Shown in pieces: positions 1,372 to 59,069 of a stretch of DNA of 64,000 nt. The translations under genes and the position numbers were made by a program. The stretch covers positions 10,754,041 through 10,818,040 of the forward strand of contig CM026562.1 of NCBI GenBank assembly GCA_015143295.1, given 5' to 3'. The notes under the pieces were generated by a model. It had not been told where the DNA came from and searched no databases. It saw only the letters and a list, made by a program, of their open reading frames with translations. How positions within the stretch are numbered: position 1 is the stretch's first letter; every line of letters starts with the position of its first letter. The DNA is from Tetracentron sinense (lineage: Eukaryota > Streptophyta > Magnoliopsida > Trochodendrales > Trochodendraceae).

Positions 1372-1599
1372 TTCGGCGACGAATTCAATCTAGAATATGG
1401 TTTCGACGACGAATCTTTGGGAAATATAGAAAACAGAATGTTTTTTGTACCCATTTCGGCGGCGAACCTAGATGAGTCATCCATTTCGTCGACGAAGTCA
1501 ATCCGAAATTAAATACATTAGGGCTCCCAACTCAATTTCGGCGACGAAATCAGGGACGAAACCCATTTTGGCGACGAATTGAGTCGTGTGTATAAATAG
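1372..1599 (+). promoter_or_regulatory. Probable internal promoter of the env-like ORF: six 12-bp palindromic motifs plus TATA box
   Basis: Six copies of TTCGNCGACGAA-like 12-mers start at 1372, 1402, 1455, 1485, 1537 and 1567, with spacings of 30, 53, 30, 52 and 30 bp. One copy is the perfect palindrome TTCGTCGACGAA (1485). A TATA box, TATAAATAG, follows at 1591-1599. The ATG of the third ORF is 120 bp further on at 1719. The same six-motif array, with nearly the same spacing, lies upstream of the TATA box in this element's own LTR (4780-4987). The motifs, spacing and TATA box are seen directly; promoter activity is inferred. Confidence 0.6.
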
Positions 1600-1718
1600 T
1601 AACCCCCAAAATCCAAACTTTTTTCAAACCTAATCTTTCCCTCCAAAGTCCCTATTCCATTGCTCGTACACCCTTCTTTGTTCCAAGATCTAGGAAATCT
1701 TCCCAAATCTCTCGGAAA

Positions 1719-3828
1719 ATGCCTCCTAGAGTGAAGAATGCATCTGTGGAGCCACCAAAGAAGAAATCAAGAACTGATAAAGGAAAAGAACCGGCCTCAA
1801 GTTCAACTCCAGTCCCAGTAAAGTTCAAGGAAGCAAAGTTCGAGAAATTATTCAAAGAAAAATTCCTATCTCGTTTCCCTCTGTACTGTAAAATCGTTAA
1901 TTTCATTAGTTTTGATGCCTATGGGCTCGAACCCATAAAAACTCTCTTTTCTGCCCTAAAATGAGATAAATTTCTTGAATCTAATGAACCCATGTTTCCT
2001 GAGTTGGTCAAACTCTTTTACACTCACTTCCATTTCAATCAATCCGAATCACTTATTACTTCATTTGTCTTAGGTAAAAACATTTCTTTTCATTTAAATC
2101 AATTGCACTCAATTTTAAAAAATCCCTCAGTGTACCCTTCAAACTTTTGTGAATGGTCAGTGGACCAGTCATGAAGGATTTGATGTGGTTGAAGCACTGA
2201 AAATGATGTGCATAAACCAAGATTTCACCTCTCCTTTTCAACCTAAGGTTAAAGATCTTACCCTCACTGCTAGACTCCTTCACCATATAATCACTTATAA
2301 CCTAGTTCCCAGGGCTGGTGGTAGGGAGTATCTCACCTACTTCGATGTATTCCTTATGTGGTGCATCCTAACCACCACACCCATTGATCTCTCCTACATC
2401 ATTGTCCATTGTATGGATGATGCATTCAAGAGAAAATCAGGATGTCTCCCTTTTGGTCAGGTTCTGACTAAAATCTTTAAACACTTCAATGTTCCCTTAG
2501 CATCTCAAACTGTCATTGTCACCCCTGATGATTCCTCAATTTATAGCAAAGCAACCATTCAAAGAATGGGCTATATTTGGAATGACTCCCAGAAGGTTTG
2601 GACTCCCAAAACCTTTGCCCCTCAGTCCTCCTCCCTTCCTTCTAGCACTCCAGCTCTTATCCCTACTTCCTCCTTGCCTACTTCTGCTCCCTCTTCATCT
2701 ATTCCTATCTCTTCATCTGCACCCACAACAGAACTTCAGGCTGAGCAGCAGCAAGCATCAGTGCCAGAGGAGGAACCTCAGGCTGAGCAGCAGCCAGTAC
2801 CAAAAGAGGATCCTGCAGATCAGCTTCAGGGTGAGCAGTACCCCAGAGATGAGTTGCCTGACTGGTCTGATTTCATGGATGCTGGAGAGATTCCCGAGAG
2901 TTCTTATAGACAGGTGTCTCCTCATTTTGAGGACCTTGGTCAGTTCTACGAGGTGCCCAGCAGGCCAGCAGCTTCAAATGAGCAGTTGGACATCATGGCA
3001 GGGCAGATTGCCTCCATGTCCTCCAGCTTGGAGCAGTTTTAGTTGGAAATGAGGATAAGCCAGCAGGCTTTTCAAGAGGAAATAAGAGCATCCCTGCTCT
3101 CCTTCATGACAGAGACAAGGGAAAATCTTACTGCCATTCAAATCGAATCAAGGGAAAATCTTTAGAATCTCCATTCTTCTACTCTCTCCCGATTTGCAGC
3201 TCTTGAGCCTGAAATGAGCAAACTCCCCAAAGCAGTCCAGTCTTCTCTTGCCACGGTGCATAGTGATCTTAGAGAGTGTGCCAATGCCACCTACTCTGTC
3301 TTAGGGACAGTTAACATGGATACCTCAGTCACCAAAGATAGAGTTGACTCTGTGTCTTCATTTCTTCATAGGTTGGGGGCAGAACAATCCGAAGAAAGTA
3401 TCCGAATGGAGAAGGTCACAAAGATAATCCAAGGAATTGTAGAATCATTAGCTCTTCAATTGAAGACTCAAGGCAAGCTTCTTTTGGATATGGTAGAGCA
3501 TGACTCCATAGATGCCTCAATTACCTTGCGGGCCACTGATGAGTTGAAGAAAATGAATAATTGTCTGGTTAGTCTGGCTAGTGGAGCCACTTCTTCTCAG
3601 CCTCCTTCTCAAGCTCCCTCTTCTTCCAAAGGCACGAGACCAATGAAGGTAACCCCCTCCAAAAGGGGTCCAGCTACTGATTCCCCTATCATCTCCCTTC
3701 CTTCCGACTTAGATACCACCTCCTCTCCTTCAGACTCCCATGATGACTCCGATCCAGCTGAGCAATCAGAAGATGTCCTCACAAAGGTTACAGACCTCCT
3801 CAAAAAGCAGAAAGCAGACGGGCTATAA
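1719..3828 (+). pseudogene. Env-like third ORF of SIRE-type element (broken)
   Basis: A coding region between pol and the 3' LTR, where SIRE elements carry an envelope-like or 'plant transposon protein' ORF. It starts with ATG at 1719 (MPPRVKNASVEPPKKKSR, a basic N-terminus). A globular part runs to about 2600, then a Ser/Pro/Gln/Glu-rich linker with PQAEQQ repeats. The Lys- and Leu-rich C-terminal part (3050-3700) looks helical or coiled-coil, and the end is acidic. I see no clear signal peptide or hydrophobic membrane segment. Lesions: TGA at 1962-1964, a frameshift near 2120-2165, TAG at 3040-3042 and TAG at 3163-3165. Assignment rests on position and overall character; the biochemical role of this family is unknown. 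Confidence 0.7.
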
Positions 3829-3854
3829 TTTTTTTTCATCTTTTTGATGTTGCC

Positions 3855-4242
3855 ATAGGGGGAGAAACATGAAATGTAATGAAAATTTAAATTTGATGAT
3901 TGATGATTGATAAATGAAATGACATTTGAACTATTTGAAATATGATGTTTTTTTTGCATCTTTGGCAGTACACACATAATATGTCTTTTGCTTATGCAAT
4001 TCTATTCTTGTCTGGATCTAATATGTTGTGAAGAGAAATTAAAATTGAAACTTATCTTTGTACAACTTTTCTTGGTATATAACCAGGGTGATATATCCTT
4101 TAACTCATCATAAACTTATCTTTTTACAAATGCATATGCGTAGGGGGAGCTTACCTCAAAGTTTTTATGAAAAAACATGTCGTGAGGGGGAGCTTAACCC
4201 AATTTCATTACATTGTTGTGTCATCATCAAAAAGGGGGAGAT
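3855..4242 (+). other. Series of polypurine tracts before the 3' LTR
   Basis: Four GGGGGAG tracts occur in this noncoding stretch at about 3858, 4143, 4186 and 4234. The second and third share the extension GGGGGAGCTTA. The last, AAAAAGGGGGAGAT (4229-4242), directly abuts the LTR start TGTTAG and is the likely plus-strand primer. No coding sequence is visible in this stretch. Confidence 0.8.
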
Positions 4243-5751
4243 TGTTAGCCTCAGGGTTACAACCATAAGTACCCCTAATAATTTTGATAATAACATAATA
4301 ATATTATGAAATATTTGGTACTAATAAACTCGTTTAAGTGCGTGAACATTTCAAATTACATAAAGTTGATAGCACTCCAATCATGAAAAACAAAGGATGG
4401 AAATTACCCAAGAGGAAGTTCAACTCAATACAAGATGAAGATTCAAGAAGAAACCTTAGTCCAAGTCAAGACCATTGAAGACAAAATACAAAATCACAAG
4501 ACCCAAGTCAAGCCAAGATCATCTCTCATTATTCTAAATGTATTCTCTTGTTATTCTGAAAATGTATAAGAACTTATGTAAAAAGTCCTCAAAAGAAAGG
4601 TGAAGTGAATAAGCTCAAGAATCATAGATTGACCATAGGAGCCTAGGATACCTTTTGAAAATCGTCCTAAAGATCTAATTCATCATAAAATTACGATAAG
4701 AGTATAGCCAATTGACCTAGGAAATCAATCACATCCCTTCGGTCTGATCCTAGACTGAATTCAGAATATTCACTCTGAATTCGTCGACGAATTCTCTGGG
4801 AAGATCAAATTCGGCGACGAAGTCATTACAAAATTTTCTTAATTCAGTTCTGCCTCCTGATTTCGGCGACGAAATCTTTGGTTGGGTTAAGATTCGGCGA
4901 CGAAGTCGTTTCAGGATTTTTTGAAATCCAATTCTGTCTTTTGAATTCGGCGACGAAATTAAGTGGGAACTCCACTTCGTCGACGAAATCATGTTTGAAA
5001 CAGAATTTTTTTTTTTAATGGCTAGTTTGCAACGGACCTAAAAGCATTTAATGCTTCCCCAACGGCACTATTGGATCAAATGCTATAAAAGGAGTTCATT
5101 TATGAACTACAAACAACTCTTGATCACAGCAATAACTCCTATTAATCACTTATTCACTGCTATTGATTTTCACTCACTCTCACACTTAGAAAATCCTCAA
5201 AAAGTTTCTCTTGAGCTCATTCAAGTCTACTTTCTTTGAGAGACTTTATTAGAGTTTGTATTTCACTCGTATCCATCTCATTCAAGGAGCTTTCAATTCG
5301 GATCTTCAATCCAAAACTTATTTATTGAGATTAGTCAAGAATCCAGGATTCTTGCACTAAAGCTGTTGCTTCAGCCACATCAAGAGAGGGTTGCATTCTT
5401 GAAAGGTTTCAGCTTGGCCTAAAGGAGAACTTGAAAGGTGATATCTCGACCTGTAAAGAGAGATTGTAAGGGTTTGGACTCCACCTGTGAAGGAGCCTGT
5501 ACGATTAAGGAATCGTGGTGAATCCTCTAGCTGGAAGCTGAGGTGGGGAGTAGGCTGGTTTGTGAACCTCGAGAACAAATCTTGAGTTTGCACTCTTCTT
5601 ATCTCTTCTCTTTCTTTTAATATTCTATTATTTTATCTTGCTGCATATTATACTCTATTCCACTCTTTGAACTTGTAGTTCATACTATTTCTTTTTAAAA
5701 TCTGCCTTAGACCCTATTCACCCCCTCTTTAGGGTCATTTCCTGGCCAACA
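4243..5751 (+). repeat. 3' LTR of SIRE-1
   Basis: Starts TGTTAGCC after the polypurine tract and ends GGCCAACA, 1509 bp in all. It is recognisably related to the SIRE-2 5' LTR at 34243-35713. Shared parts include the start (gttacaacc / gttacattcc, then TACCCCTAATAATTTTGAT), the segment around the TATA box (GAGTTCATTTATGAACTA) and the CACCCCCTC end. No protein-coding capacity is seen; short open frames inside it are chance. Confidence 0.92.
4777..5090 (+). promoter_or_regulatory. U3 palindrome array and TATA box of SIRE-1 LTR
   Basis: Six 12-mers TTCG(T/G)CGACGAA start at 4780, 4810, 4862, 4893, 4946 and 4976 (spacings 30, 52, 31, 53, 30). The first lies inside the perfect 18-bp palindrome GAATTCGTCGACGAATTC (4777-4794), and the last is also perfect. 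A TATA box (TATAAAAGG) begins at 5084, about 96 bp after the last motif. The layout is three repeats of about 83 bp, each holding two motifs 30 bp apart. An enhancer role is inferred from its place in U3. Confidence 0.75.
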
Positions 5752-6653
5752 TCGATGACCATGATCTCCACGATCGATTTCCATCAATGACGGCTTCGGA
5801 TTCCACTGACCAAATCACTCTACTGCGATCCTTCTCCGATCGATCTCCTTCGCAAAGGCTCCAGAACACTCCGGCCAATTTGTTCTTTCCAGAACGGGTT
5901 GATGGTTTGATTAAAATCAAATCCTAGATGGATTCAATCAATGAGAAAGTCCAAGCAAGCAAGAATGGAACAATGACTTGCAAAATCTAGTATAGAAGAG
6001 AACTTAATGAAGGGAAGGTAAGAAAATAATTTTCAGAGTTTCTATGAACTCTAGAGATACCCCAAAGTACTCTCAACACACTCTCCAAGTCTACTTTTTC
6101 GGACAAGAAGGGTTCTAGTTAAATAGATAAGCAAAGCCAAGTTTATAGAAGTTGCTAAAAACCAAAAAGGCAATAAAATCTATATCAGGGTCGACCCAAG
6201 TGCCTCTCAGGGTCGACCCTCAATTATCTCATGTTCTGGAAATTTTGCCCATACAAACCTTTCCATATCAGGGTCGACCCTCAAATGGTTAGGGTCGACC
6301 CTAAAGAGCATTTTTGGCATTTTTCTTTCTTTTAATGCCTAATGCTTTGCATCAATTGGTCTAGGCTTTTTGGAATCATTTTCTATGATTTTGGGCATTT
6401 CCATATGAATGATTTTTGGTCTTCTAGGTCTCACTTACCATCCTAAAACTTGAGCCATTCTTGGATGATGATTCTTCATGCTTTATCATGGCTTCTTCTT
6501 CCCTTTTTATCTCGAACCAGATGATGTGACCTAAGGAGAACTATAGTCACATTTGGACTCGGAATTTTGTTAATACAAAAACATGACTTTACATTCTAGA
6601 CTCACTAATTTTGACACCGGAATAAGCCAACACTAAAATATGGACTTTACAAT
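5752..6653 (-). repeat. 3' LTR of Copia-1, truncated by SIRE-1
   Basis: Matches 10799-11747 from the segment ATCTCCACGATCGAT to the terminal ...GGACTTTACA. It begins abruptly at 5752 next to the SIRE-1 LTR end. The minus-strand LTR start reads TGTAAAGTCC at 6653. The palindrome AGGGTCGACCCT occurs at 6209-6220, 6270-6281 and 6291-6302, with the core GGGTCGACCC also at 6188-6197. A TATA-like CTATTTAACT (minus strand) lies at 6118-6127, downstream of the array in the transcription direction. Confidence 0.88.
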
Positions 6654-10389: not shown

Positions 10390-11747
10390 TGAAAAAATAT
10401 CCGGTGAACCTCAAATCTAATGATTGAGTTGAGAACTCACAAATTCAAGAGGATGGTTAGGTCTCCCTAGAAGTCTATCTACCCTTTTTAAGATTAGGCA
10501 ATCAAATTATTGATTAAGAGATGATGAACTTTAAAGTGTGGAATAAGAGAAACAAGCAAACCACAACGTACACAAGGATTTTTACATGGAAACCCTTCCG
10601 GGAAAAACCACGGGACCTAGTCCAGCAATGAGAATCCACTAAGACAAAGAAACAAATACTTACAAGACTCGAACTGTACTCAACCGGACTCGACTTCCTC
10701 AATCCTCAGTACTCAGTACTCAGTCCTCCACGCCTTCGAAAGCAATCATGATCTCACAAGCCTCGCAATCTACCGTAGTAGCTTGTTCTTCTCTTGTGTC
10801 TCGATTACCACGATCTCCACGATCGATCTCCATCAATGAAGGCTTCGGATTCCACCGACCAAATCACTCTACCACGATTCTTCTCAGATCGATCTCATCC
10901 GCAAAGGCTCCAGAACACTCCGTCCAATTTTTTCTTTCCAGAACGGGTTGATGGTTTGATTAAAATCAAATCCTATATAGACTCCATCAATGGGAAAGTC
11001 CAAGCTAGCAAGAATGGAACAATGGCTTGCAAAATCTAGGATGGAAGAGAACTTAATTAAGGGAATGAGAGAAAATAATTTCCAGAGTTTCTATGAACTT
11101 TAGAGATACCCCAAAGTACTCTCAACACACTCCCCAAGTCTACTTTTTTAGACAAGAAGGGTTCTAGTTAAATAGAGAAGCAAAGCCAAGTTTATAGAAG
11201 TTGTAAAAACCAAAAAGGCAAGAAAGTTTATATCAGGGTCAACCCTGGGCCCTTTGGGTCGACCCAAATGTGCACTTCGGTCAACCCAAATGCCTCTCAG
11301 GGTCGACCCTCAATTATCTCATGTTCTAGAAATTTTTCCTATACAAAACCTTTCCATATCAGGGTCGACCCTTAAATGGTCAGGGTCGAGCCTTGAAGAG
11401 CATTTTTGGCATTTTTCTTCTGTTTAATGCCTAATGCTTTGCTTCAATTGGTCTAGGCTCTTTGGAATCATATTTTTTTTTAATGATTTTGAGCATTTCC
11501 ATATGAATGATTTTTGGTCTTCTAGGCCTCACTTACCATCCTAAAGCTTGAGACATTCTTGGATTATGATTCTTCATGCTTTATCATGACTTCTTCTTTG
11601 CTTTTCATCGAACCGGATGATGTGACCTAAGGAGAACTATACTCACATTTGGACTCGGAATTTTGCCAATACAAAAACATGACTTTACACTCTAGATTCA
11701 TTTGTTTTGACACCGGAATAGGCTAATACTAAAATATGGACTTTACA
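10390..11747 (-). repeat. 5' LTR of Copia-1
   Basis: 1358 bp, with TG at 10390 and CA at 11747 on the plus strand, beside the primer site. Its right 950 bp match 5752-6653. Palindromes with core GGGTCGACCC lie at 11256-11265 (inside the 16-bp perfect TTTGGGTCGACCCAAA, 11253-11268), 11299-11310 and 11361-11372. Degraded versions lie near 11235, 11278 and 11382, mostly 20-22 bp apart. Confidence 0.88.
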
Positions 11748-11866
11748 ATTCATTTAGACTATACATGGCTATGCGAGTTATGCGCACGAATGGGCTTGGG
11801 TTCGGGTGAGGGCAAGGGCAAACGGCTTTGTGTGCTATGAGGCATACGCACTTCGCATGTGCGCAT
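11748..11866. other. Unassigned 119-bp spacer
   Basis: Lies between the Copia-1 LTR end and the start of the W1 repeat. It contains several ATGCGCAC-like and GGGC-rich words but no recognised feature. Confidence 0.4.
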
Positions 11867-13456: not shown

Positions 13457-15876
13457 CTTTGCTAAGCTTTGTAGTAGTGCTCCTGGGAGTGTGAGCATAC
13501 TTAGCTGAGCTCATACCAATTTTTTACAAGGTCTTTGACATATTTGGTTTGAGATACAGAAATCTCATTTTGCATTTATCTAACCTGAAGACCAAGAAAG
13601 AAACTTAGTTCACCAACAATGCTCATTTCAAATTCATTCTTCATTTGTTTAGCAAATGAGTGAGCATAAGAGTTTGATGTGGAACCAAAGACTATATCAT
13701 CAACATAAATATGAGCAATGACCATATCATCCTTGATATTTTTAATGAATAGGGTCCTGTCTACTTCCCCTCTCGAAAATCTCTTTTCTAAGAGGTAGGT
13801 AGTCAGTCTCTCACACCAAGCTTTGGGAGCTTGCTTCAAACCATAGAGAGCCTTTTTTAACCTGTAAACCTGATCAAGATGATTTGGGTCCTCAAACCCT
13901 TTTGGTAGTTCCATATAGACTTCCTCCTGAAGAATACCATTCAGAAAGACACTCTTAACATCTATCTGAAAAAGCTTGAATTTTAGATGACATGCAACAG
14001 CTAACAAAATTCTAATTGAATCTAACCAGGCAATAGGAGCAAAGGTTTTATCGAAATCGATGCATTCAATCTGAGTGTATCCCTGTGCAACTAACCTGAC
14101 CTTGTTTCTTACAATAGTACCATATTCATCAGATTTGTTCTTGAAAATCCATTTGGTACCTATCACATTGGTGTCTTTCGACCTAGATACTAAAAACCAT
14201 ACATCATTCCTTGTATACTGATTCAACTCTTCTTGCATGACATTTATCAAATTTTCATCAATAAGAGCTTCAGATACATTTTTGAGTTCAAATGTGGAAG
14301 TGTAGCAAAGAACCTAACTTCATTTTCAATTTGATTTCGAGTTCTCACTCCACTTTTAAGATTTCTAATAATTTTAGTTGAGGAGTGAGGTCTCATAACC
14401 CTAAGATGTGTAGAATTTTTAGGAGGTGACATTGAAGGTGACTCATCTTCAGATTTAGATGTTGGAATAGTCACAACTTCATTAGTAGAGTCATCCTCTA
14501 GTTATACAATCTCCATTTCGGAGTCATCAACAATCACATTTATTGACTCCATGACAGTAGAGGTTCTCAAGTTGAACACTCGATAAGCCCTATTATTAGT
14601 AGAATACCCAAGAAAGATCACTTCATCACTACAGGACTCAAACTTACCCAGTTGCTCTCTATCCCTAAGGACATAACATTTACTCTTGAATACTCGAAAG
14701 TACTTGACATTGCGTTTCTTGTTATTCCACAACTCATACGGGGTCTTCCTTGTTCCAGGCCTAGCATAAACTTTATTTACAGTATAGCACGTAGTGCTAA
14801 CTGCTTCGGCCCAGAAATGATCAGCTAGGTTGTTGCTATGGAGCATCACTCTTGCCATCTCTTGGAGCACCTTATTCTTCCTCTCCACAGCAGCATTTTG
14901 CTGAGGTGTTATAGGAGCTGAGAATTCATGTTTGATGCCAGAATCATCACAAACTCATTGTACTTGGAGCTTTCAAACTCCTTTCCATGATCACTTCGAA
15001 TTCGAGTGATAGGGCATCCTTTTTCATTTTGAACTCTCTTGTAAATACTCTTGAAGTTCTCAATAGCATCTGACTTCTCTCTTATGAATGCCACCCATAA
15101 CATCCTTGACAAATCATCAACCATCACTAGAGTATATCGCTTACCACCTAGACTTTCAGTTCTAGTAGGACCCATGAGATCCATGTGAATTAATTCTAGT
15201 AGATGTAATATAGCAATATTTGAAGTCTTCTTGTGTGGGCTTTTAATTTGTTTGCAAATTTGACATGGCCCACACACAGCAGTAGAGAACTTCCTTAGTT
15301 TAGGCACACCTCTCACAAGTTCATGTCTCAAGAGTTTGTTGAGGTCTTTAAAGTTCATGCAACCTATCCTCCCATGCCATAAATCAGCTTCCTCAACTTT
15401 AGTCCTGTTGCAGATTTTAGAGGAACCCACACTTGGGATTAAGTCATAGCAATTATCAGTGGTCCTCAACCCTTCCAAAACACACATACATTTACCATCC
15501 ACAACAGAACATTTATTATTGGTAAAGTGCACAGCATGGTTATCATCAAACAGTTGGCTTATGCTAATTAGATTAGCTTTCAGCCCTTCCACAAAAAAGA
15601 CATCCTTCAGTTTTGGAATGTCTGGAGCTTGGATGATACATTTTCCTTTCACAAAGGATTTGCTTCCATCGCCAAAGGTAACAGTCCCATCTGAGCATCC
15701 TCAAGTTGACTGAAGAGGGACTTGTTACCTGTCATGTGTCTAGAACACCTACTATTGAAATACCACATGTCAGAATTTTGGGATTTCAAAGTAGTGTGAA
15801 TGACAAGGCACTTTAGGTCATCCTTTCTCACATATATGAATTTAGACTTTTGGTGAATTCTTCTGTTTTTATCCAT
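13457..15876 (-). pseudogene. pol: Copia-2 pol: protease, integrase, RT (incomplete)
   Basis: In minus-strand order. The protease region at 15876-15649 has the active site altered from DSG to NSR (WYFNSRCSRHMTG). The GAG-pre-integrase zinc site at 15652-14909 has LWHGRIGCMN, where the second His is Cys, then CGPCQIC. The integrase core shows HMDLMGP and RSDHGKEF, and its catalytic Glu lies in the next frame (VERKNK, 14888). A 1-nt loss in an A-run near 14951 causes that frame change. The RT at 14250-13576 has QIDVKSVFLNG, KALYGLKQAP and YVDD, then a stop after LGLQVR. Degraded RT continues to about 13457. The element is inactive. Confidence 0.92.
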
Positions 15877-15899: not shown

Positions 15900-18093
15900 T
15901 CTTTTTAGATCATTTTTTCTTCTCATCTATGAAACCCTAGCACTTTGGTTCATCTTGTTACCTTCTTCATGATCAACATAAAAAGTGTCCGGACCATGTC
16001 GAGTACTAGAGAGTTGAGTAATTTTCATCACTTCTTCACTCAAACTCCTAGACTTTTCAGCTAAGGCTTGAATCTACCTTTGGAGATACCCTTGATGTTG
16101 AGTTTGGTTCCACGAACCATTACGGGGATTTCTCCTAAAAACATTACAGTTGGGTCGAGTGTGACCCTTCACTCCACACTGGAAGCACGTGGGAATGAAC
16201 CCGGGAGAAGGAGATCTTTTAACCTGAGGCTGAACCTTAATTCTATCAACTTCAATTGGAACTGAATCCTTACCATGTCCATAGGTGACATAGGTTTGAT
16301 ATAGTTAAGAACTTGGTATCCTAGATTTTGGTAGTGAGGGAGCAGAACTCTCATATCTTGGATTTTCATGTAATGGCTCAAATGTTGCATTAGCCATTGT
16401 ATTGACATTCATGGGACAAGGTGGTTTGTTTGAATGTCTTATGCCAGTTATGTTTACTATTGAGTGCTGCATGCTAGCTAATTTATCCAATATTTGAGTG
16501 TTACTAAGGAGTTTAGCTTCTTTTTCAAGTTCAGTTACTTTCTCAGCTAGCGCATCCTTAACTTTCAGGATATCGAGAAATTCCTTTTCTAGAAACCTAA
16601 CCTTTTCAAAAAGGTTATCTCTTTCAGATTCCAAATCTGAAATGAGGGTTTTTGACTTTTCAGACACATTCATGATGTTATCTCCCTCATACTCTAGAAC
16701 CTTGACCCATTTTGTCAGAGATAGATTTTCTTCCTCAAGACACTCTATCTTAGACACAAGTTCACTTCAAGTTCAAGCCGAGCTATTAGCTCATTCTTCC
16801 CTTCTACTTCTAGTTTGCAAGAATCTCTTTCATGTTGAGCTATTTTAAGTTTCTTGTTCCAAGAGATCTTGACCTTTTTTAGTTTCAAACTTTCAGAAAA
16901 CAACTTTTCATAAGCTGTATCCATATCTTCATTAGATTCAGAGACAGTGTGACTTTGATAATGATCTTCACTGGAATCGGTCTCTTGACCATTATCACAA
17001 TTGTCTTTCACTTCATCATTAGGAGAAGGTTCGACAATCTCGAATGAGGAGACAGTGAAAGCCATATGATTTACAGATTCCTCACTTGAGGTAGAGTTGT
17101 CAGATTTTTCATTCTTGGATTCACTATCATCCCATGTGGCATTCATCACCTTTCCCTTACTTTTCTTCTTTTTAGGGTAGTCAGATGATATATGACCATA
17201 ACCTTTGCATTCATAGCATTGTATGCCACGAGAATTTTTGTTAGTACCTTTGGATGATCTCTTAGTTTCCCAAGGTTTTGATTTTGGCTTTTCAAATAGT
17301 TTTCCTCCTAGTTTAGGATTAAACCTTCTATTCGATTTTAAGTATTTTTGAAATTTCTTAACGAATGAGTCAATTCCTTCTCTCCTAATTCAACTTCACT
17401 GTCATCTTCATCCAAATTTTCCTTGACAGTTTTCAAGGCTATTGACTTGTTTTTCTTGGATGGTTGAAGATTGAGTTCGTAGGTTTGGAGTAATCCGACC
17501 AATTCCTCAATCTTGAGAGCATCAACATTCTTGCTCTCCTCTATGATAGTGACCTTAGATTGAAATCTCTCAGGTAGAGATTTAAGGATTTTTCTCACAA
17601 TTTTGGACTCACTAATTTTCTCACTTAAATTGAAACTGGAATTAACAATGTCACTTAGTTTCGTATAGAATTCATCAAAAGTTTTATTATCATCCATTTT
17701 CAAATTTAGTGGTGAGCATTTGGAGCTTTGAGATCTTGATAGTGGTGGTACCTTCATGGGTCATCTCCAGAATATCCCATGCCTCCTTTGCTGTTTCACA
17801 TGAGGAAATTATTCTGAATTCCTCTACAGTGACTGCTGTAAAGATTGCTTTGAGACCTTTTGTGTTCCAACAACTTGTCTCGAGCTCATCTTTGTTCCAA
17901 TCTTTGGAACTCTTAGTCACTATTACATCACCAAGAATATTCATGGGCGTGGTCCACCCATCCTAAATAGACATCTAGATTCTCTCGTCCATTAATTTGA
18001 GAAACACTCTCATTCATGCTTTCCAATACACATAGTTATTCCCATCAAACAGTGGGGGACGAGAGATGGACCGCCCTCTCTTAGAGTAGTCAT
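15900..18093 (-). pseudogene. gag: Copia-2 gag
   Basis: Starts at minus-strand ATG 18093-18091. The LFDGNNYVYWKA signature is followed by a stop (CGA to TGA type). The UBN2-type middle is split between 17944-17690 and 17757-17338. The first zinc knuckle, CYECKGYGHISSDY near 17190-17230, again has Tyr in place of the last Cys. An acidic region (17149-16860) and a coiled coil (16757-16500) follow. The second knuckle, CFQCGVKGHTRPNC at about 16147-16190, is intact. Several frameshifts separate these pieces. The domain order matches Copia-1 gag. Confidence 0.88.
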
Positions 18094-18150
18094 TGACTTA
18101 AGGATAAATGCAAGATCACACTTAAGGGACTAACCTTATTAGTGAACCCG

Positions 18151-18163
18151 CTCTAATATCAAT
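18151..18163 (-). other. Degraded primer-binding site of Copia-2
   Basis: The minus strand reads AATTGATATTAGAG beside the LTR. This is the initiator-Met primer site TGGTATCAGAG with two transitions. Copy B has the same sequence before 23631. Confidence 0.7.
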
Positions 18164-19389
18164 TGAAATTCCCTAGTTCAATGATTTCCTTGCCCTAGAG
18201 GGGGGGGGGGGGTGAATAGGTCTAACTTAAGTTATCTACCAATTTTAATTTTAGCAATCACAAATAATCAATAACAAGTACACATGCAACTTTTTACGTG
18301 GAAAACCCTTTCGAGAAAAACCACGGGACCTAATCCAGCACAAAATTCACTATGAGAAGAATTAAGCCATACAAGACTCGAATCTTACCCAACCAGACAC
18401 GACACACCGTTCCTTGGTATTGATTCCTCGCGTTGAGTACCATGAACCCAGCTGGTTCGATCTTTGCCACAGCAGCTCTAATTCCTCACTGACCACTTTT
18501 TCTCAAAGCTTACACACCATGATCTTAAAAGATCGATTTCCGTCCTTGACGGCTTTGGCTCATGCCAACCAAATTCTCAACAGAGAAACACAGGGGATTT
18601 AATATTCAGAACACCTCTAGAGTGATCTCATTAATTGCTTGAGGATCAACCAATGCAATTTTGTATGATCTAGAAAAGAAGAACTTGCATATCTAGAGAA
18701 ACCAATGAGTGAGAGAGGAAAGAAATTAATCTAGAGTATTGAGAAATTCTAGGGCCTTCAAAAATAGGTCTTCAACACTCTCTCAATCCTCAGGATGAGC
18801 TAAGGAATGATCCAATAAATAGCCAAGGGAAAAGGAGTTGACAAATATGATTCAGATGGTTTTAGTAACATGATATACAAGGTCCATTCGAACGGCCATA
18901 AGGGGCATTCGAATAGCCTTGAATTTGGACAAGAATGGTTGAAAACAGGCTGGCAAGGAAGCTACTAGATTTGAACTTTAATTGCCCATTCAAATAGCTG
19001 GCTGGCCATTCTTGGGCATTCGAACGGCCAAGCTGGGCGTTCAAACGGTCAATATAGTTTTGCTTACTATTTTTCATACAGACCATGCCTCTTCAACCAT
19101 TCTTATACCAAGACCATCCAAAGGCTATTTTAAATACTTAAGTCAATTTCTAATCACCTAGGGCATGAGATATATTTTCTAAGTCAATTCCCCCTAAGGA
19201 AACCACATGGTATCTAGGTCAATTACCATCCTAAGAGCATGAGCGAAGCTTTAACTGGAATGCACTTCTCTTGGAGTCTTTGGAGCTTCATCTTCAACAA
19301 ACTTGATCAATCGGACGATCAATAACACTAGACTTAAATTGACACCATTTTGTCATCAGAATTAAGCTAATACAAAATATGACCTTACA
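18164..19389 (-). repeat. 5' LTR of Copia-2
   Basis: 1226 bp, TG at 18164 and CA at 19389 (plus strand). It shares blocks with the Copia-1 LTR (TTTTTACGTGGAAAACCC, AAAAACCACGGGACCTA, ACAAGACTCGAA), but its U3 differs. TTCGAA-centred repeats (GCATTCGAACGGCC and variants) have cores at 18887, 18908, 18989, 19009, 19019 and 19040, that is 21, 20, 10 and 21 bp apart within the two clusters. A TATA-like CTATTTATTGG (minus strand) is at about 18813-18823. A G-run of over ten bases lies near 18200. Confidence 0.88.
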
Positions 19390-20911
19390 AAGATAAAGGT
19401 CATTCACGAAATGCCCCCTCCAAGAAATCTGCGTGATCTGAAAGGACTTCAATGTCGACTTGCTTACATCTAGAGATTCATTTCTAACTTGGCCGAAAGG
19501 TGCCAACCCTTTTCCCGGCTGATGAAGAAGGGAATACCATTCCAATGGGATCAGGCATGTCAAAATGCCCTCGATAGCATCAAGACCTATCTCACCATTC
19601 CAATGGGATCAGGCCTGTCAAAATGCCCTCTAAAAGACGATGAAAGGGCAAGCCGTTACTGACTTCCTTGCAGCATATCCGGTTCCCGCAAACTCACCAT
19701 TGGTGACCGACCTCCATGATAAAGAAGTTATGCAGGTACAGGTCAAACCAGACTGGAAGATGTACTTTGATGGAGCTTCAAGAAGCCCCAATAGAATCAA
19801 ATGCATCAACATGAAGGAGAACAAGTCAAGTGTTGGTATTGTTTTTGTCACACTAGACAAAGCAATCCTACTCTATTCCTTCGCCCTAACAGAAGGATGC
19901 TCAAACAATGAAGCTGAATATGAGGCCCTGACAGCAGGTCTTGAAATTGCTCTTGAGATCACAGTGGATGAACTAACCGTCTATGGGGATTCTGAACTCG
20001 TCATCAAACAAGTCTAAGGTGAATATGCCGTACGAAGAGTCATCCTTCTTCCCTATCAGAAGAGAGTAGACCAGCTACTTGCTCAAATACCAAAGAGTAG
20101 CCTCTTCCATGTCCGTAGAGGAGTCAACAATCAAGCCGATGCTTTAGCCGGTCTTGTAGCATCTCTAACTCTACCAACAGACATGGTACTGACTATCACA
20201 GTAGGAGAAAGAAGAACTCTCAAACCCCTTCCGAATATAGATTTCAAGAAAACAGTTTGTTCTATGACAATCAAAGAAAAAGACGATGACTCGCGACAAC
20301 CTTTCATCGATTATCTCCAACATTGTCGATTACCCAGATACCGTGCCAAACTTGTTGAAGTCCGTCGACATGTCACAAAGTTCTTGATGCTGAAAGATAC
20401 TCTGTATAAATGATCCTTAGATTGTATCTTAATAAGGTGCCTCTCAGGAAATGAAATTGATGAAGCCATGCAAGAGACTTATGTCGGGATCTACGGTGCC
20501 CACCAAGCTGGGCCCAAACTCTAAATGCAGCTGAAAAGATTGGGCTACTACTAGTCGACGATAATCACTGATTGTCTCAACTATGCAAGAAAATGCAAAG
20601 TGTGTCAACTTCATGCTGACTTTATACACAGGGCTCTCGAGCCCCTCCACATGACATGTTCAAGGCCCTTCGCAGTATGGGGAATGGTTGTCATAGGACC
20701 ATTCACCCCACCATCATCTACCGGGCATCAATACATCCTGGCTATGATGGACTACTTCTCAAAATAGGCTGAAACCCTCACCCTCAAAGAGGTCAAACAC
20801 CACTCAGTGGCAGACTTCATCTAGACTAACATTATATATCGGTTCGGAATTCTTGAAAGCATCATCACAGATAATGGGCAACCTTTTCGAAGCACCTCGA
20901 TACACAAATTG
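19390..20911 (+). pseudogene. pol: Tat-lineage Ty3/gypsy pol fragment, copy A
   Basis: Frame from 19390: the RT C-terminal/connection region (EMPPPRN, RFISNLAERCQPFSRLMKKG, FQWDQACQNAL), an abrupt jump, then the additional RNase H of Tat elements (QVKPDWKMYFDGASRS, NNEAEYEALTAGL, YGDSELVIKQV). The integrase follows (LHADFIH zinc region, FSKWAE, ITDNGQPF). The first RNase H domain appears deleted at the 19541-19640 junction. The first catalytic Asp of integrase is Val (GMVVIGPF). Stops include TAG near 19471, TAA at 20015-20017, TGA at 20411-20413, TAG near 20766 and TAG near 20822. The sequence ends at 20911 against solo LTR X. Confidence 0.88.
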
Positions 20912-22962
20912 TGTCGCGACCCAAAACCCACCCTAGGAGTTAGAGTGAACTTTGGACGACTAATCATGGATTTCATGACTTGCTTGACAAACCAACCTGC
21001 AAAAACCCACAGAGCATATACAATAGAGGATAGAAATAGCGGAAACATACTCTAATATAACACAGCGGAAGTCTAAACAAACCTCTATGTATATACTTAC
21101 GCAAATCCAAGTTTATACAAAAGGTAACCATAAGAAAGTGCAGACATGCCCGCCAAAATACATAAATCTAACTCTCATCTCACCCACAGCTAATCCACTC
21201 AGAATCTAAAAGTACGGCTGAGCATGGAATACTCAGCGAGTACAAACTACTAGCTAACCATAACAATAGCGAAAGCATAACAACAGTGAGCAATACAAGA
21301 TATTAATTTAAAGCAATAGTGAAAGCATAAGATACATAGCCATATCTTGACATGCGTGTATGAATGCAAAAACCTCGGTAAAACTCATGTCTCGGAAACC
21401 TTTTTCGTGTCTCGGTCAAATCATGTATGTGTGTCGTGTCTTGTCTTGTATTTCATGTCTTGATTTGTTCTTGACTTGTATACTTGTGAGCCAGAGGCTA
21501 GCACCCTTCCTTGGGCTACCAACCTCCTTGTCATGTTCTTGTTCCATTTCACTTGTGAGCCAGAGGCTAGCACCCTTCCTTGGGCTACCAACCTCCTTGT
21601 CATGTTCTTGTTTCATTCCATATACAAATACAATCTTGGAAAACCCGGTTTCATGCATGCATGTGTGGTGTGTGTAGCACTTGTAATATCATGATGACAA
21701 TGCGACATGAAGAGTAGTGTATAGCAATTCAATCCACAGTATAACCATATAGGAATTTGAGTAATCTACGTGACATTTGAATAGTTCATCATTCATAAGA
21801 ACACATGCATAAGGTCTACTTTCATTTTCTTCATTTATGTCATTTATTCCTAGTTTAGGCATTTTGTCAAACACATAGCATGCAAGGTTCCTTAATGGTT
21901 CATCTTCTTCTTTTTAGTGCCTACTTTCCATCCAAAAATCAAGGTATGTTCATTATTGGTAAAGTACCCATCCACCATTTCCATCACCCAACATACACCT
22001 CGGCATCCAATCGCCACATCAACACCCACACACATCCATACCTTTTTCTTATCTTATTTAGGTTCATTGGAGATGATACATTTCATATGGGAGGCAAACA
22101 TAATAGCATAAATCACATTTCATAAGGAAAACCTAGATTTATTGCTAGGGTAAGTTAGTAGGGTGTACTAACCTTGAATCAAGGCTTGATCCTTGGTAGG
22201 GACCTTGATTGAAGCTCCAACTTGAAAGATGAAGCCTTTGCTTGAAAGAAGCTTGAGTTGGGGAAGAAATCTCTTTTAAAAAAACATGCGTGAGGGCTGC
22301 CCTAGCTTTGAGAATGCACCCCACCCGAGCTTGAGTTGAAATCTTGAAGAAAACGTGCTTGGGGACGATCTAGGGTCTTCACCCCTTTGATTTCTTCTCC
22401 AAAAGCAACCTAGGTTTAGAGCTTTCTCCTCTTCTTTCTCTATCTCTCAAAATCCCTCAAATGTTGTAAGTGAGGCCTCAAAGGGTCGAGCAAACCCTTA
22501 TGGGTAAGGGTTTAACACCCAAAAGATGAAAACGCCCTTACTGAAATTTCTGCAAAAACACGAAGACCGAGCGATCGGTGTTCATGACCGATCGATCGGT
22601 TGCCTACCGAGCGATCGGTGTTTATGACCGATCGACCGGTCAAAAACTCACTCTCTGGAAAATTTCCCCATACAAAATTTCTGACCGTGCGATAGCTACC
22701 GATCGATCGGTTATGGACCGATCGATCGCTGACTGGACCGAGCGATCGGTCTTCTGTATGTCTGGACTGTTTTGACCATATCTTTTGACTCGTTTGTCGG
22801 ATTTCGACGATTCAACTTGCGTTGGATCCGTCTTTCGAAAACGAACATTTCTGACGTTTCGGAATTTCCGATTTCTCCCTTATTTATTAATTAGACTATA
22901 AAAACGGCCAATTAGCTATGAAGGTGGTATTCATTAAGGATGAAAAAGTCTGGGGTGCTACA
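20912..22962 (-). repeat. X: solo LTR of chromovirus type with mismatched flanks
   Basis: Plus-strand ends are TGTCGCGACCC (20912) and GGGTGCTACA (22962); reversed, it starts TGTAGCACCCC. Both ends resemble the Z LTRs (40295-42581 and 59070-61405), for example GACAAACCA and TAATTAATAAATAAGG. It carries a 69-bp direct repeat (21482-21619) and palindromes ACCGATCGATCGGT and variants (22566-22750). The left 5-bp flank is AATTG and the right is CGACC, so there is no target duplication. No coding sequence is seen. Confidence 0.85.
22566..22750 (-). promoter_or_regulatory. Palindrome array of X
   Basis: Perfect ACCGATCGATCGGT at 22587-22600 and 22698-22711. Variants start at 22566, 22606, 22627, 22717 and 22737. 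Spacings inside each cluster are 19-21 bp. It lies in the 5' part of the minus-strand LTR, equivalent to the Z array before its TATA box. Confidence 0.7.
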
Positions 22963-23560
22963 CGACCAATTCCTTAATCTTGAGAGCATCAACATTCTTG
23001 CTCTCCTCTATGATAGTGACCTTAGATTGAAATCTCTCAGGTAGAGATTTAAGGATTTTTCTCACAATTTTGGACTCACTAATTTTCTCACTTAAATTGA
23101 AACTGGAATTAACAATGTCACTTAGTTTCGTATAGAATTCATCAAAAGTTTTATTATCATCCATTTTCAAATTTAGTGGTGAGCATTTGGAGCTTTGAGA
23201 TCTTGATAGTGGTGGTACCTTCATGGGTCATCTCCAGAATATCCCATGCCTCCTTTGCTGTTTCACATGAGGAAATTATTCTGAATTCCTCTACAGTGAC
23301 TGCTGTAAAGATTGCTTTGAGACCTTTTGTGTTCCAACAACTTGTCTCGAGCTCATCTTTGTTCCAATCTTTGGAACTCTTAGTCACTATTACATCACCA
23401 AGAATATTCATGGGCGTGGTCCACCCATCCTAAATAGACATCTAGATTCTCTCGTCCATTAATTTGAGAAACGCTCTCATTCATGCTTTCCAATACACAT
23501 AGTTATTCCCATCAAACAGTGGGGGACGAGAGATGGACCGCCCTCTCTTGGAGTAGTCAT
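22963..23560 (-). pseudogene. gag: Copia-2-type gag fragment in copy B
   Basis: The same UBN2-type gag sequence as 17496-18093, with the same frameshift between the two gag frames. It is truncated at 22963 by the X junction, so it lacks both zinc knuckles. It is not a functional gene. Confidence 0.88.
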
Positions 23561-23630
23561 TGACTTAAGGATAAATGCAAGATCACACTTAAGGGACTAA
23601 CCTTATCAGTGAACCCGCTCTAATATCAAT

Positions 23631-24856
23631 TGAAATTCCCTAGTTCAATGATTTCCTTGCCCTAGAGGGGGGGGGGGGTGAATAGGTCTAACTTAAGTTA
23701 TCTACCAATTTTAATTTTAGCAATCACAAATAATCAATAACAAGTACACATGCAACTTTTTACGTGGAAAACCCTTTCGAGAAAAACCACGGGACCTAAT
23801 CCAGCACAAAATTCACTATGAGAAGAATTAAGCCATACAAGACTCGAATCTTACCCAACCAGACACGACACACCGTTCCTTGGTATTGATTCCTCGTGTT
23901 GAGTACCATGAACCCAGCTGGTTCGATCTTTGCCACAGCAGCTCTAATTCCTCACTGACCACTTTTTCTCAAACCTTACACACCATGATCTTAAAAGATC
24001 GATTTCCGTCCTTGACGGCTTTGGCTCATGCCAACCAAATTCTCAACAGAGAAACACAGGGGATTTAATATTCAGAACACCTCTAGAGTGATCTCATCAA
24101 TTGCTTGAGGATCAACCAATGCAATTTTGTATGATCTAGAAAAGAAGAACTTGCATATCTAGAGAAACCAATGAGTGAGAGAGGAAAGAAATTAATCTAG
24201 AGTATTGAGAAATTCTAGTGCCTTCAAAAATAGGTCTTCAACTCTCTCTCAATCCTCAAGATGAGCTAAGGAATGATCCAATAAATAGCCAAGGGAAAAG
24301 GAGTTGACAAATATGATTCAGATGGTTTTAGTAACATGATATACAAGGTCCATTCGAACGGCCATAAGGGGCATTCGAATAGCCTTGAATTTGGACAAGA
24401 ATGGTTGAAAACGGGCTGGCAAGGAAGCTACTGGATTTGAACTTTAATTGCCCATTCAAATAGCTGGCTGGCCATTCTTGGGCATTTGAACGGCCAAGCT
24501 GGGCGTTCAAACGGTCAATATAGTTTTGCTTACTATTTTTCATACAGACCATGCCTCTTCAACCATTCTTATACCAAGACCATCCAAAGGCTATTTTAAA
24601 TACTTTGAGTCAATTTCTAATCACCTAGGGCATGAGATATATTTTCTAAGTCAATTCCCCCTAAGGAAACCACTTGGTATCTAGGTCAATTACCATCCTA
24701 AGAGCATGAGTGAAGCTTTAACTGGAATGCACTTCTCTTGGAGTCTTTGGAGCTTCATCTTCAACAAACTTGATCAATCGGACAATCAATAACACTAGAC
24801 TTACATTGACACCATTTTGTCATCAGAATTAAGCTAATACAAAATATGACCTTACA
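23631..24856 (-). repeat. Copia-2-type LTR in copy B
   Basis: Same length (1226 bp) and layout as 18164-19389, with a few substitutions and compensating single-base length changes (the G-run near 23667 and TACTTTGAG near 24601). It contains the same TTCGAA repeat array, from about 24354 to 24507. Confidence 0.9.
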
Positions 24857-26882
24857 AAGATAAAGGTCATTCACGAAATACCCCCTCCAAGAAATCTGCG
24901 TGAGCTGAAAGGACTTCAATGTCGACTTGCTTACATCTAGAGATTCATTTCTAACTTGGCCGAAAGGTGCCAACCCTTTTCCCGGCTGATGAAGAAGGGA
25001 ATACCATTCCAATGGGATCAGGCATGTCAAAATGCCCTCGATAGCATCAAGACCTATCTCACCATTCCAGTGGGATCAGGCCTGTCAAAATGCCCTCTAA
25101 AAGACGATGAAAGGGCAAGCCCTTACTGACTTCCTTGCAGCATATCCGGTTCCCGCAAACTCACCATTGGTGACCGACCTCCATGATAAAGAAGTTATGC
25201 AGGTACAGGTCAAACCAGACTGGAAGATGTACTTTGATGGAGCTTCAAGAAGCCCCAATAGAATCAAATGCATCAACACGAAGGAGAACAAGTCAAGTGT
25301 TGGTATTGTTTTTGTCACACTAGACAAAGCAATCCTACTCTATTCCTTCGCCCTAATAGAAGGATGCTCAAACAATGAAGCTGAATATGAGGCCCTGACA
25401 GCAGGTCTTGAAATTGCTCTTGAGATCACAGTGGATGAACTAACCGTCTATGGGGATTCTGAACTCGTCATCAAACAAGTCCGAGGTGAATATGCCGTAC
25501 GAAGAGTCATCCTTCTTCCCTATCAGAAGAGAGTAGACCAGCTACTTGCTCAAATACCAAAGAGTAGCCTCTTCCATGTCCTTAGAGGAGTCAACAATCA
25601 AGCCGATGCTTTGGCCGGTCTTGCAGCATCTCTAACTCTACTAACAGACATGGTACTGACTATCACAGTAGGAGAAAGAAGAACTCTCAAACCCCTTCCG
25701 AATATAGATTTCAAGAAAACAGTTTGTTCTATGACAATCAAAGAAAAAGACGAAGACTGGTGACAACCTTTCATCGATTATCTCCAACATTGTCGATTAC
25801 CCAGATACCGTGCCAAACTTGTTGAAGTCCGTCGACATGTCACAAAGTTCGTGATGCTGAAAGATACTCTGTATAAACGATCCTTAGATTGTATCTTAAT
25901 AAGGTGCCTCTCAGGAAATGAAATTGATGAAGCCATGGAAGAGACTTATGTCGGGATCTACGGTGCCCACCAAGCTGGGCCCAAACTCTAAATGCAGCTG
26001 AAAAGATTGGGCTACTACTAGTCGACGATGATCACTGATTGTCTCAACTATGCAAGAAAATGCAAAGTGTGTCAACTTCATGCTGACTTTATACACAGGG
26101 CTCTCGAGCCCCTGCACATGACATGTTCAAGGCCCTTCGCAGTATGGGGAATGGTTGTCATAGGACCATTCACCCCACCATCATCTACCGGGCATCAATA
26201 CATCCTGGCTATGATGGACTACTTCTCAAAATGGGCTGAAACCCTCACCCTCAAAGAGGTCAAACACCACTCAGTGGCAGACTTCATCTAGACTAACATT
26301 ATATATCGGTTCGGAATTCTTGAAAGCATCATCACAGATAATGGGCAACCTTTTCGAAGCACCTCGATACACAAATGGTATGTCAAATTTGACATCAAGG
26401 AGAACCATTTCACCTGGTATTATGTAGCCGCGAATGGTCTCACCGAAGTCATCAACAAGACTTTGTGCAAAATCCTCAAAAAAGTTGCGGACAAAAGAAA
26501 ATGGGACTGGCACGAATGCCTACCCGAAGCACTCTAGGTATACATGACTACTTACCGAATTCTGACATAGGCCATGTCATATTCCCTGGTATTCGGCAGT
26601 GAAGCAGTTCTCCTCCTAGAAATTCAAATTCCCTCCCTAAGGGTGGTAATTCAATAGTCTATCACAAATGAAGGCTCAACTAAGGTTCGTCTAGCAGAGC
26701 TCAAAACTCTTGATAAACATCGTCTTCGAGCCCAATAGAACTTAGATGTACAGACAAAGGCTAACTATTCAATAAAAGAGTAAGGCTAAGGTCTTTTAAA
26801 ACAAGGGATTTGGTTTTAATGGTCAGGACTCCAATCATCGTCACGCATCGAACTAAGGTAAAGCTCGAACTGAAGTGGGAAG
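24857..26882 (+). pseudogene. pol: Tat pol, copy B: connection, extra RNase H, integrase
   Basis: Same order as copy A but extends further. The RNase H frame runs 25107-25763, longer than in A because A's TAA at 20015 is CGA here. It ends at a TGA (25761-25763) where A has CGA. The integrase at 26028 onward reads CKVCQLHADFIH, GMVVIGPF (first catalytic Asp is Val), DYFSKWAE, ITDNGQPF (second Asp kept) and GLTEVINKTL (Glu kept). Stops are frequent beyond 26288. It is interrupted at 26882 by X2, within the WEGPY segment. Confidence 0.88.
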
Positions 26883-59034: not shown

Positions 59035-59069
59035 AAATTTCGGGGACGAAATTTTTTCAGGGGGGAGAA
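59035..59069 (+). other. Z stem and polypurine tract
   Basis: AAATTTCG...CGAAATTT arms with loop GGGA (59035-59054), then CAGGGGGGAGAA directly before the 3' LTR. This arrangement is shared with Y and is common in plant chromoviruses. Confidence 0.82.

Follow-up and report, generated by a model that had tools for sequence, protein, structure and literature searches.

A predicted internal promoter with a six-motif array upstream of the third open reading frame of a Sirevirus in Tetracentron sinense

How the env-like gene of Sireviruses is expressed is an unsettled question. Stop codon suppression and an internal promoter have been named as mechanisms (PMC3414828; this and the other cited papers are drawn on in part). 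The internal promoter was proposed in 2002 and 2010 and was favored by Bousios et al. 2010 (PMC2829016), who described repeated palindromes in Sirevirus long terminal repeats (LTRs) and upstream of ENV; these authors did not conclusively identify a promoter before ENV, and the proposal has lacked a defined one. The element described here lies in a 64,000-nt stretch of the genome of Tetracentron sinense (contig CM026562.1), hereafter the window, to which all coordinates refer; the features described lie on its forward strand. The window starts within the pol gene of a Sirevirus, the stop codon of pol is located at 1191, and a further 527 bp lead to the start codon of the third open reading frame (ORF3). 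The segment from 1372 to about 1636 is probably an internal RNA polymerase II promoter that drives ORF3. Related loci fetched from the same genome are designated by L-numbers.

Two arrays of six TTCGNCGACGAA-type motifs are present in the element, at 1372–1578 upstream of ORF3 and at 4780–4987 in the 3′ LTR. The motifs start at 1372, 1402, 1455, 1485, 1537, and 1567 in the pre-ORF3 array, and at 4780, 4810, 4862, 4893, 4946, and 4976 in the LTR array. Ten of the twelve are exact copies of TTCGNCGACGAA, and those at 1455 (TTCGGCGGCGAA) and 1567 (TTTGGCGACGAA) carry one mismatch each. The start-to-start rhythm is 30-53-30-52-30 upstream of ORF3 and 30-52-31-53-30 in the LTR, and random placement of six motifs within a fixed span matched the rhythm within 1 bp in 1 of 400,000 cases. 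Each array is followed by a TATA box, TATAAATA at 1591–1598, 12 bp past the last pre-ORF3 motif, and TATAAAAG at 5084–5091, 96 bp past the last LTR motif. The positions, both rhythms, and both TATA boxes agree with a preliminary description of this DNA. The ratio of observed to expected CpG is 1.93 for the 200-bp window at 1401 and 2.01 for that at 4801, and does not exceed 1.26 in the other 28 such windows of the first 6 kb.

The spacers separating the motifs are largely different in the two arrays, as had also been described. In-register spacer pairs differ from shuffled sequences by z scores of 0.8, 0.8, −1.2, 1.5, and 2.3, and the identity over all pairings within the window copy is 0.459 vs 0.412 in shuffles (standard deviation, sd, 0.018), an excess of about 2.6 sd. 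Six other combinations of LTR and pre-ORF3 spacers exceed shuffles by about 1.8 to 3.8 sd, with values within an element no higher than those across families. The spacers thus retain a faint trace of similarity, near background. Because of this, the earlier description of the pre-ORF3 array as copied from the LTR enhancer is not established. A functionless remnant of a duplicated piece of the LTR, carried along passively, would share motif, rhythm, and a faint spacer similarity with the LTR. However, motifs and rhythm persist while spacers drift, across many copies and diverged families, and such a remnant would be expected to lose its CpG-rich motifs first. We consider a passive remnant without function very improbable.

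The array recurs in related elements, including those selected by pol alone. Twenty loci on contigs C13 to C23 were chosen from 150 matches to the RNase H region without regard to the array, and 19 of them carry it, with all six motifs (at most 3 mismatches) in 18 copies and five in L061. The possibility that related elements lack the array was thereby checked and is not borne out; all 150 scored matches are at least 91% identical, and the sample represents the main family. TATAAA is at the expected place in 16 of the 20 copies, counting L067, where it is 2 bp closer; L050, L052, and L062 lack TATAAA, and L051 lacks both TATAAA and the array. An earlier fetch had yielded 17 pre-ORF3 loci (L009–L024 and L026), together with one LTR (L025) and two loci of the gypsy type (L027 and L028). 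TATAAA is positioned 12 bp past the last motif in 17/17 of these pre-ORF3 loci, some of which have lost motifs. A second batch of 20 loci (L029–L048) was taken from 100 listed matches to the motif-TATA pair for an unusual sequence between last motif and TATA box. In 18 of these 20, all five upstream motifs deviate by no more than 6 bp from their standard places (at most 3 mismatches); L035 retains three of the five and L044 none.

Genome-wide, 529+646 sites match the motif pair, and no site matches a reversed-pattern control. The last motif of the ORF3 type followed at 5–25 bp by TATAAATA occurs 89+108 times (197), compared to 2+2 (4) in the reversed control, and the gap equals 12 bp in 99 of the 100 matches listed. 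The motif-TATA pair of the LTR type occurs 250+308 times (558), vs none in the control. Among viral contigs, 11 loci match the motif pair. Many of the 100 LTR-type matches listed contain AACGG repeats (TAACGGCTAGTTT..CAACGG) between array and TATA box, which are reminiscent of the AACGG box of the MYB3R type.

The conservation is focused on the pre-ORF3 block. Among 38 pre-ORF3 loci, 36 pass a strict search for the last motif and TATA box (all except L019 and L022), and 30 of these 36 have all six motif slots filled. In 300 pairs of 25 copies, binned by RNase H nucleotide identity (0.93, 0.85, and 0.78), motif identity is 0.91, 0.86, and 0.83, respectively. Over the same bins, identity falls to 0.89, 0.69, and 0.56 in the short spacers, to 0.87, 0.72, and 0.62 in the long spacers, and to 0.82, 0.65, and 0.55 in the leader, with a random level of 0.45–0.50. 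In every slot, 29–30 of the 30 copies have T at both opening positions of the motif and A at its eighth and final positions, and the eleventh base is retained in 26–30. Most variation affects the free fifth base and the CpG pairs, the latter as expected from deamination after insertion.

Comparison of two lineages defined by rhythm, A (20 copies) and B (6 copies), in 120 pairs delimits the conserved region. The excess of identity over shuffles is 0.115–0.248 for blocks that extend from the array up to +46 relative to the TATA box, −0.012 at +46 to +84, 0.032 at +84 to +122, and 0.038–0.080 upstream of the array. Conservation above shuffles is thus concentrated between −219 and +46, a region comprising the array, its spacers, the gap of 12 bp, and the stretch 8–46 bp after the TATA box. 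Array, TATA box, and the next ~38 bp behave as one conserved unit across diverged families. In many copies TTTTCAAA, or a sequence close to it by eye, is located about 30–36 bp past the TATA box, and plausibly marks the transcription start.

An internal promoter would account for the fixed TATA box, the array, and the limits of conservation, and is the best explanation of them. We hypothesize that the six directional near-palindromes, arranged as three dimers, act as an upstream enhancer. The TATA box 12 bp beyond the array would direct initiation near 1620–1626, within the conserved post-TATA stretch at 1599–1636, as judged from the TATA distance and conservation. The resulting separate ORF3 mRNA would have a leader of roughly 100 nt, the remainder of which is predicted at 1637–1718, and the interval from TATA box to ORF3 is free of ATG in the window copy. 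The LTR would use the same kind of enhancer in front of its own TATA box, and one DNA-binding factor may switch on both the genomic RNA and the ORF3 mRNA. The conserved unit and the presence of the array in pol-selected copies lend partial support to the proposal that ORF3 has its own promoter. ATG codons are absent from 23 of 31 leaders, which contain 0.26 ATG on average vs 0.77 in shuffled leaders. The 300 bp preceding the TATA box contain a mean of 5.26 ATG vs 5.89 in shuffles, so that translation of a long RNA by scanning would encounter roughly five ATGs in this interval, near the number in shuffles.

The internal promoter had been presented as an alternative to readthrough or splicing, and the two fare differently. 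Readthrough past the pol stop codon would correspond to the stop suppression reported for soybean SIRE1 in a work cited in PMC2829016. It was rejected for the window copy: pol and ORF3 are in different frames, and the 527-bp gap contains 7, 12, and 14 stop codons in the three frames, the pol stop included. We assign it next to no probability. Splicing of an LTR-initiated RNA, with an acceptor in the pyrimidine-rich stretch before the ATG and another role for the array, is not set aside in the same way, and we regard it as unlikely. The leaders average 65% pyrimidine, L016, L024, and L048 share an acceptor-like site at +56, and BAGY2 and Athila have predicted splice acceptors (PMC2829016). However, the acceptor-like site immediately before the ATG is limited to the main family, to which all 13 copies that have it belong by their ORF3 start, and the site scan found none in the window copy and the diverged families. 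The leader beyond +46 is also unconserved between lineages A and B, and splicing leaves a TATA box at a fixed distance from the array unexplained.

Several points weigh against a promoter for ORF3. Acceptor-like sites, which favor splicing, are present in 19 of 36 leaders vs 23% of shuffles, and 13 of 31 copies have one within 5 nt before the ORF3 ATG (CTCTCAG). An ATG precedes that of ORF3 in 8 of 31 leaders, the ORF3 ATG is not recognized in 5 of 36 copies, and both pol and ORF3 are disrupted in the window copy. The first 17 loci were fetched by the array pattern and are thus a selected sample. A motif slot was defined as the best match within 6 bp with at most 3 mismatches, which flatters motif conservation, and the copies behind the genome-wide pair counts are related and hence non-independent.

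The arrays could alternatively act as structures in RNA or single-stranded DNA (hairpins, packaging signals, or a source of small RNA) and not as factor-binding sites. Both arrays lie inside the predicted genomic RNA, and the motifs are near-palindromic. Three of the five pre-ORF3 spacers, whose sequences differ by family, fold better than shuffles (combined z −5.0, −5.7, and −5.6), and the long LTR spacers do so weakly (z −2.5). There is, however, little folding signal in the remaining two pre-ORF3 spacers (z 0.8 and −0.7) and in the short LTR spacers (−1.7). The position of the array relative to the TATA box and the orientation of the motifs are constant, and since the eighth base is a nearly fixed A, whereas the fifth is usually G (T in slot four), the motif arms do not pair best. 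We find a structural role distinctly unlikely. When the pre-ORF3 spacers were tested for strict mirror symmetry, the outcome was mixed (z 4.2, −5.7, 3.4, 2.3, and −0.4); folding relative to shuffles was therefore used instead, and hairpins carry no weight in our conclusions.

The spacers at 1414–1454, 1467–1484, and 1549–1566 contain inverted repeats in several families, with differing sequences such as TGGGC..GCCCA, GGATGAGTCATCC, and GGAAACA..TGTTTCC. They are possible additional factor sites or hairpins.

Control of the ORF3 promoter and the LTR by the same factor, as proposed in the preliminary description, is supported indirectly. Motif and orientation are identical in the two arrays. The outer dimers of nine main-family LTRs are spaced by 30 bp where readable, matching their pre-ORF3 arrays, apart from one 29-bp interval in L009. 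Lineage B has 31-bp dimers in its pre-ORF3 arrays and in 8/8 dimers of four LTRs (L025, L026, L081, and L084). Such a joint shift of dimer spacing is suggestive of a shared factor, not proof of it. It is weakened by the following: the LTRs compared are few; the center dimer of main-family LTRs is either 30 or 31 bp, with 31 bp in three of eight readable LTRs; the pre-ORF3 array of the same element was read for L026, L081, and L084, not for L025; L084 was selected for a 31-bp pair that had already been listed in it; of four LTRs chosen blindly, three (L080, L082, and L083) showed no array; and 10 of the 36 copies fit neither lineage, with a mixture of 30 and 31 bp in some copies.

The same motif is found in a second superfamily. 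The LTRs of L027 and L086 contain three such motifs at spacings of 31 and 30 bp, about 106 bp before the TATA box. L027 has matches to RVP_2, RVT_1, RT_RNaseH_2, integrase H2C2, and SH3_Tf2-1, and a chromodomain match below the curated cut-off, whereas L086 matches RT_RNaseH, integrase H2C2, and SH3_Tf2-1. Both are Ty3/gypsy elements, and L027, which we take to be a Tekay element, is probably a chromovirus. The gypsy-type pattern has 106+110 matches and none in the control; about a dozen of the 100 matches listed are Sireviruses by eye. The ORF3 pieces of the window had no match when searched against L027.

The occurrence of the motif in LTRs of Ty3/gypsy elements favors a factor of the host over an activator encoded by the element; most simply, both kinds of element would use one DNA-binding factor of the host. 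A bolder proposal is that one host factor drives the Sirevirus LTR, the Sirevirus ORF3, and the Ty3/gypsy LTR promoters, and that the two superfamilies exchanged a composite enhancer (motif, ~18-bp spacer, motif); we put it forward tentatively and find it doubtful. Three distinct gypsy spacers were compared with all distinct pre-ORF3 spacers of the 36 copies and with the spacers of seven LTRs, and resemble them more than shuffles do. Identity is 0.476 vs 0.387 in shuffles (sd 0.013) for Sirevirus LTR spacers, 0.451 vs 0.377 (sd 0.015) for the last pre-ORF3 spacer, and 0.414 vs 0.359 (sd 0.014) and 0.399 vs 0.379 (sd 0.011) for the other two short pre-ORF3 spacers. This test replaced a comparison of hand-picked spacers (z 7.0, 2.4, and 6.6), which was discarded. 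A single TTCGACGACGAA is located at L027:8986, just before the polypurine tract, and the window has TTCGGGGACGAA at 59039; the two are possibly a feature of gypsy ends unrelated to the enhancer.

The arrays resemble the RM boxes of Sireviruses (PMC2829016), which are CpG-rich palindromes in CpG islands upstream of the LTR TATA box and of ENV, as the repeated palindrome precedes the LTR TATA box and ORF3 at CpG-rich spots here. Unlike the RM boxes, which except in Tnd-1 have a CGG-CCG core, TTCGNCGACGAA lacks this core; it is not among the 13 motifs in Table 3 of PMC2829016, and a rhythm shared by LTR and pre-ENV arrays is absent from the covered parts of that paper. Soybean SIRE1 is of the same genus and also has an env-like frame after pol. 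In foamy viruses, one factor, Tas, acts on both the LTR and an internal promoter (PMC8670036, PMC4929722). However, these are animal retroviruses and not Ty1/copia elements, and Tas is made by the virus, whereas the putative factor here is more likely the host's.

The repeated palindromes of LTR and pre-ENV regions, their CpG islands, and the idea of an internal promoter have thus been known since 2010 (PMC2829016). What is new is that the motif differs, that the two arrays share a rhythm, that the putative core promoter can be located, and that the motif recurs at 30–31 bp spacing in Ty3/gypsy LTRs. In titles and abstract openings, with most subscription journals outside the search, we recognized no literature on the window motif or on an enhancer shared by Sirevirus and gypsy elements, and the matches listed in a search for the motif letters include no retrotransposon title. 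Palindromes in maize Sirevirus LTRs were reportedly the subject of work in 2016. The Sirevirus family described here offers a candidate promoter with fixed coordinates in many copies and diverged lineages, and its motif, through its recurrence in another superfamily, provides a way to approach a host factor on which plant retroelements of several kinds may depend.

The layout of the element (pol, broken ORF3, four polypurine tracts, and 3′ LTR) fits the genus Sirevirus as described in PMC2829016. The 3′ part of pol at 2–1191 was delimited by the list of open reading frames, a profile match, and tblastn to related copies. It consists of a reverse transcriptase frame at 2–904, open at the window edge, and a frame for the RNase H end at 880–1191 in a different frame. 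The reverse transcriptase is of the Ty1/copia type, assigned without a tree by its match to the Pfam profile RVT_2 (E=5.1e-39). The polypurine tract AGGGGGAG occurs four times within 3857–4240 (starts 3857, 4142, 4185, and 4233), the last copy 10 bp upstream of the LTR start. The 3′ LTR (TGTTAG...CCAACA) spans 4243–5751, as defined by its termini and by comparison with the 5′ LTR; LTR comparisons used 4234–5751, which includes the 9 bp preceding it. By eye, CACCCCCTC within the printed final 62 bp of the LTR is a polyC-rich integrase signal. The 5′ LTR is on the same contig outside the window and is 96.5% identical to the 3′ LTR over the 1014 bp compared. At a substitution rate of 1.3e-8 per site and year, the insertion would be about 1.3 million years old.

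ORF3 (1719–3828) is broken in the window copy into open stretches at 1719–1964, 2149–3042, and 3214–3828. The middle stretch matches Pfam Transposase_32 marginally (46 bits, cut-off 45), and none of 1337 candidates in a protein search with it reached E<=0.001. Env-like frames of Sireviruses are characterized by transmembrane and coiled-coil segments; the highest 19-residue hydropathy of ORF3 is 1.61. Its N-terminus (1719–1800) is basic (EPPKKKSR) and similar in many copies; it resembles a nuclear localization signal more than a signal peptide, which would fit the envelope label badly.

Other repeats are present downstream of the element. A Ty1/copia fragment at 13516–13944 has no similar array nearby, as judged by eye. 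A second repeat family, at 5752–6653 and 10801–11749 (86.9% alike), contains GGGTCGACCC palindromes at 6188–6301 and 11236–11392. It holds nine of the 12 matches to GGGTCGACCC in the window (at most 1 mismatch; 0.5 expected), several of them in pairs 20–22 bp apart, and looks like a different repeated-motif array. Two 3.4-kb stretches at 17496–20912 and 22963–26379 are 98.8% identical and represent a recent duplication or a repeat pair.

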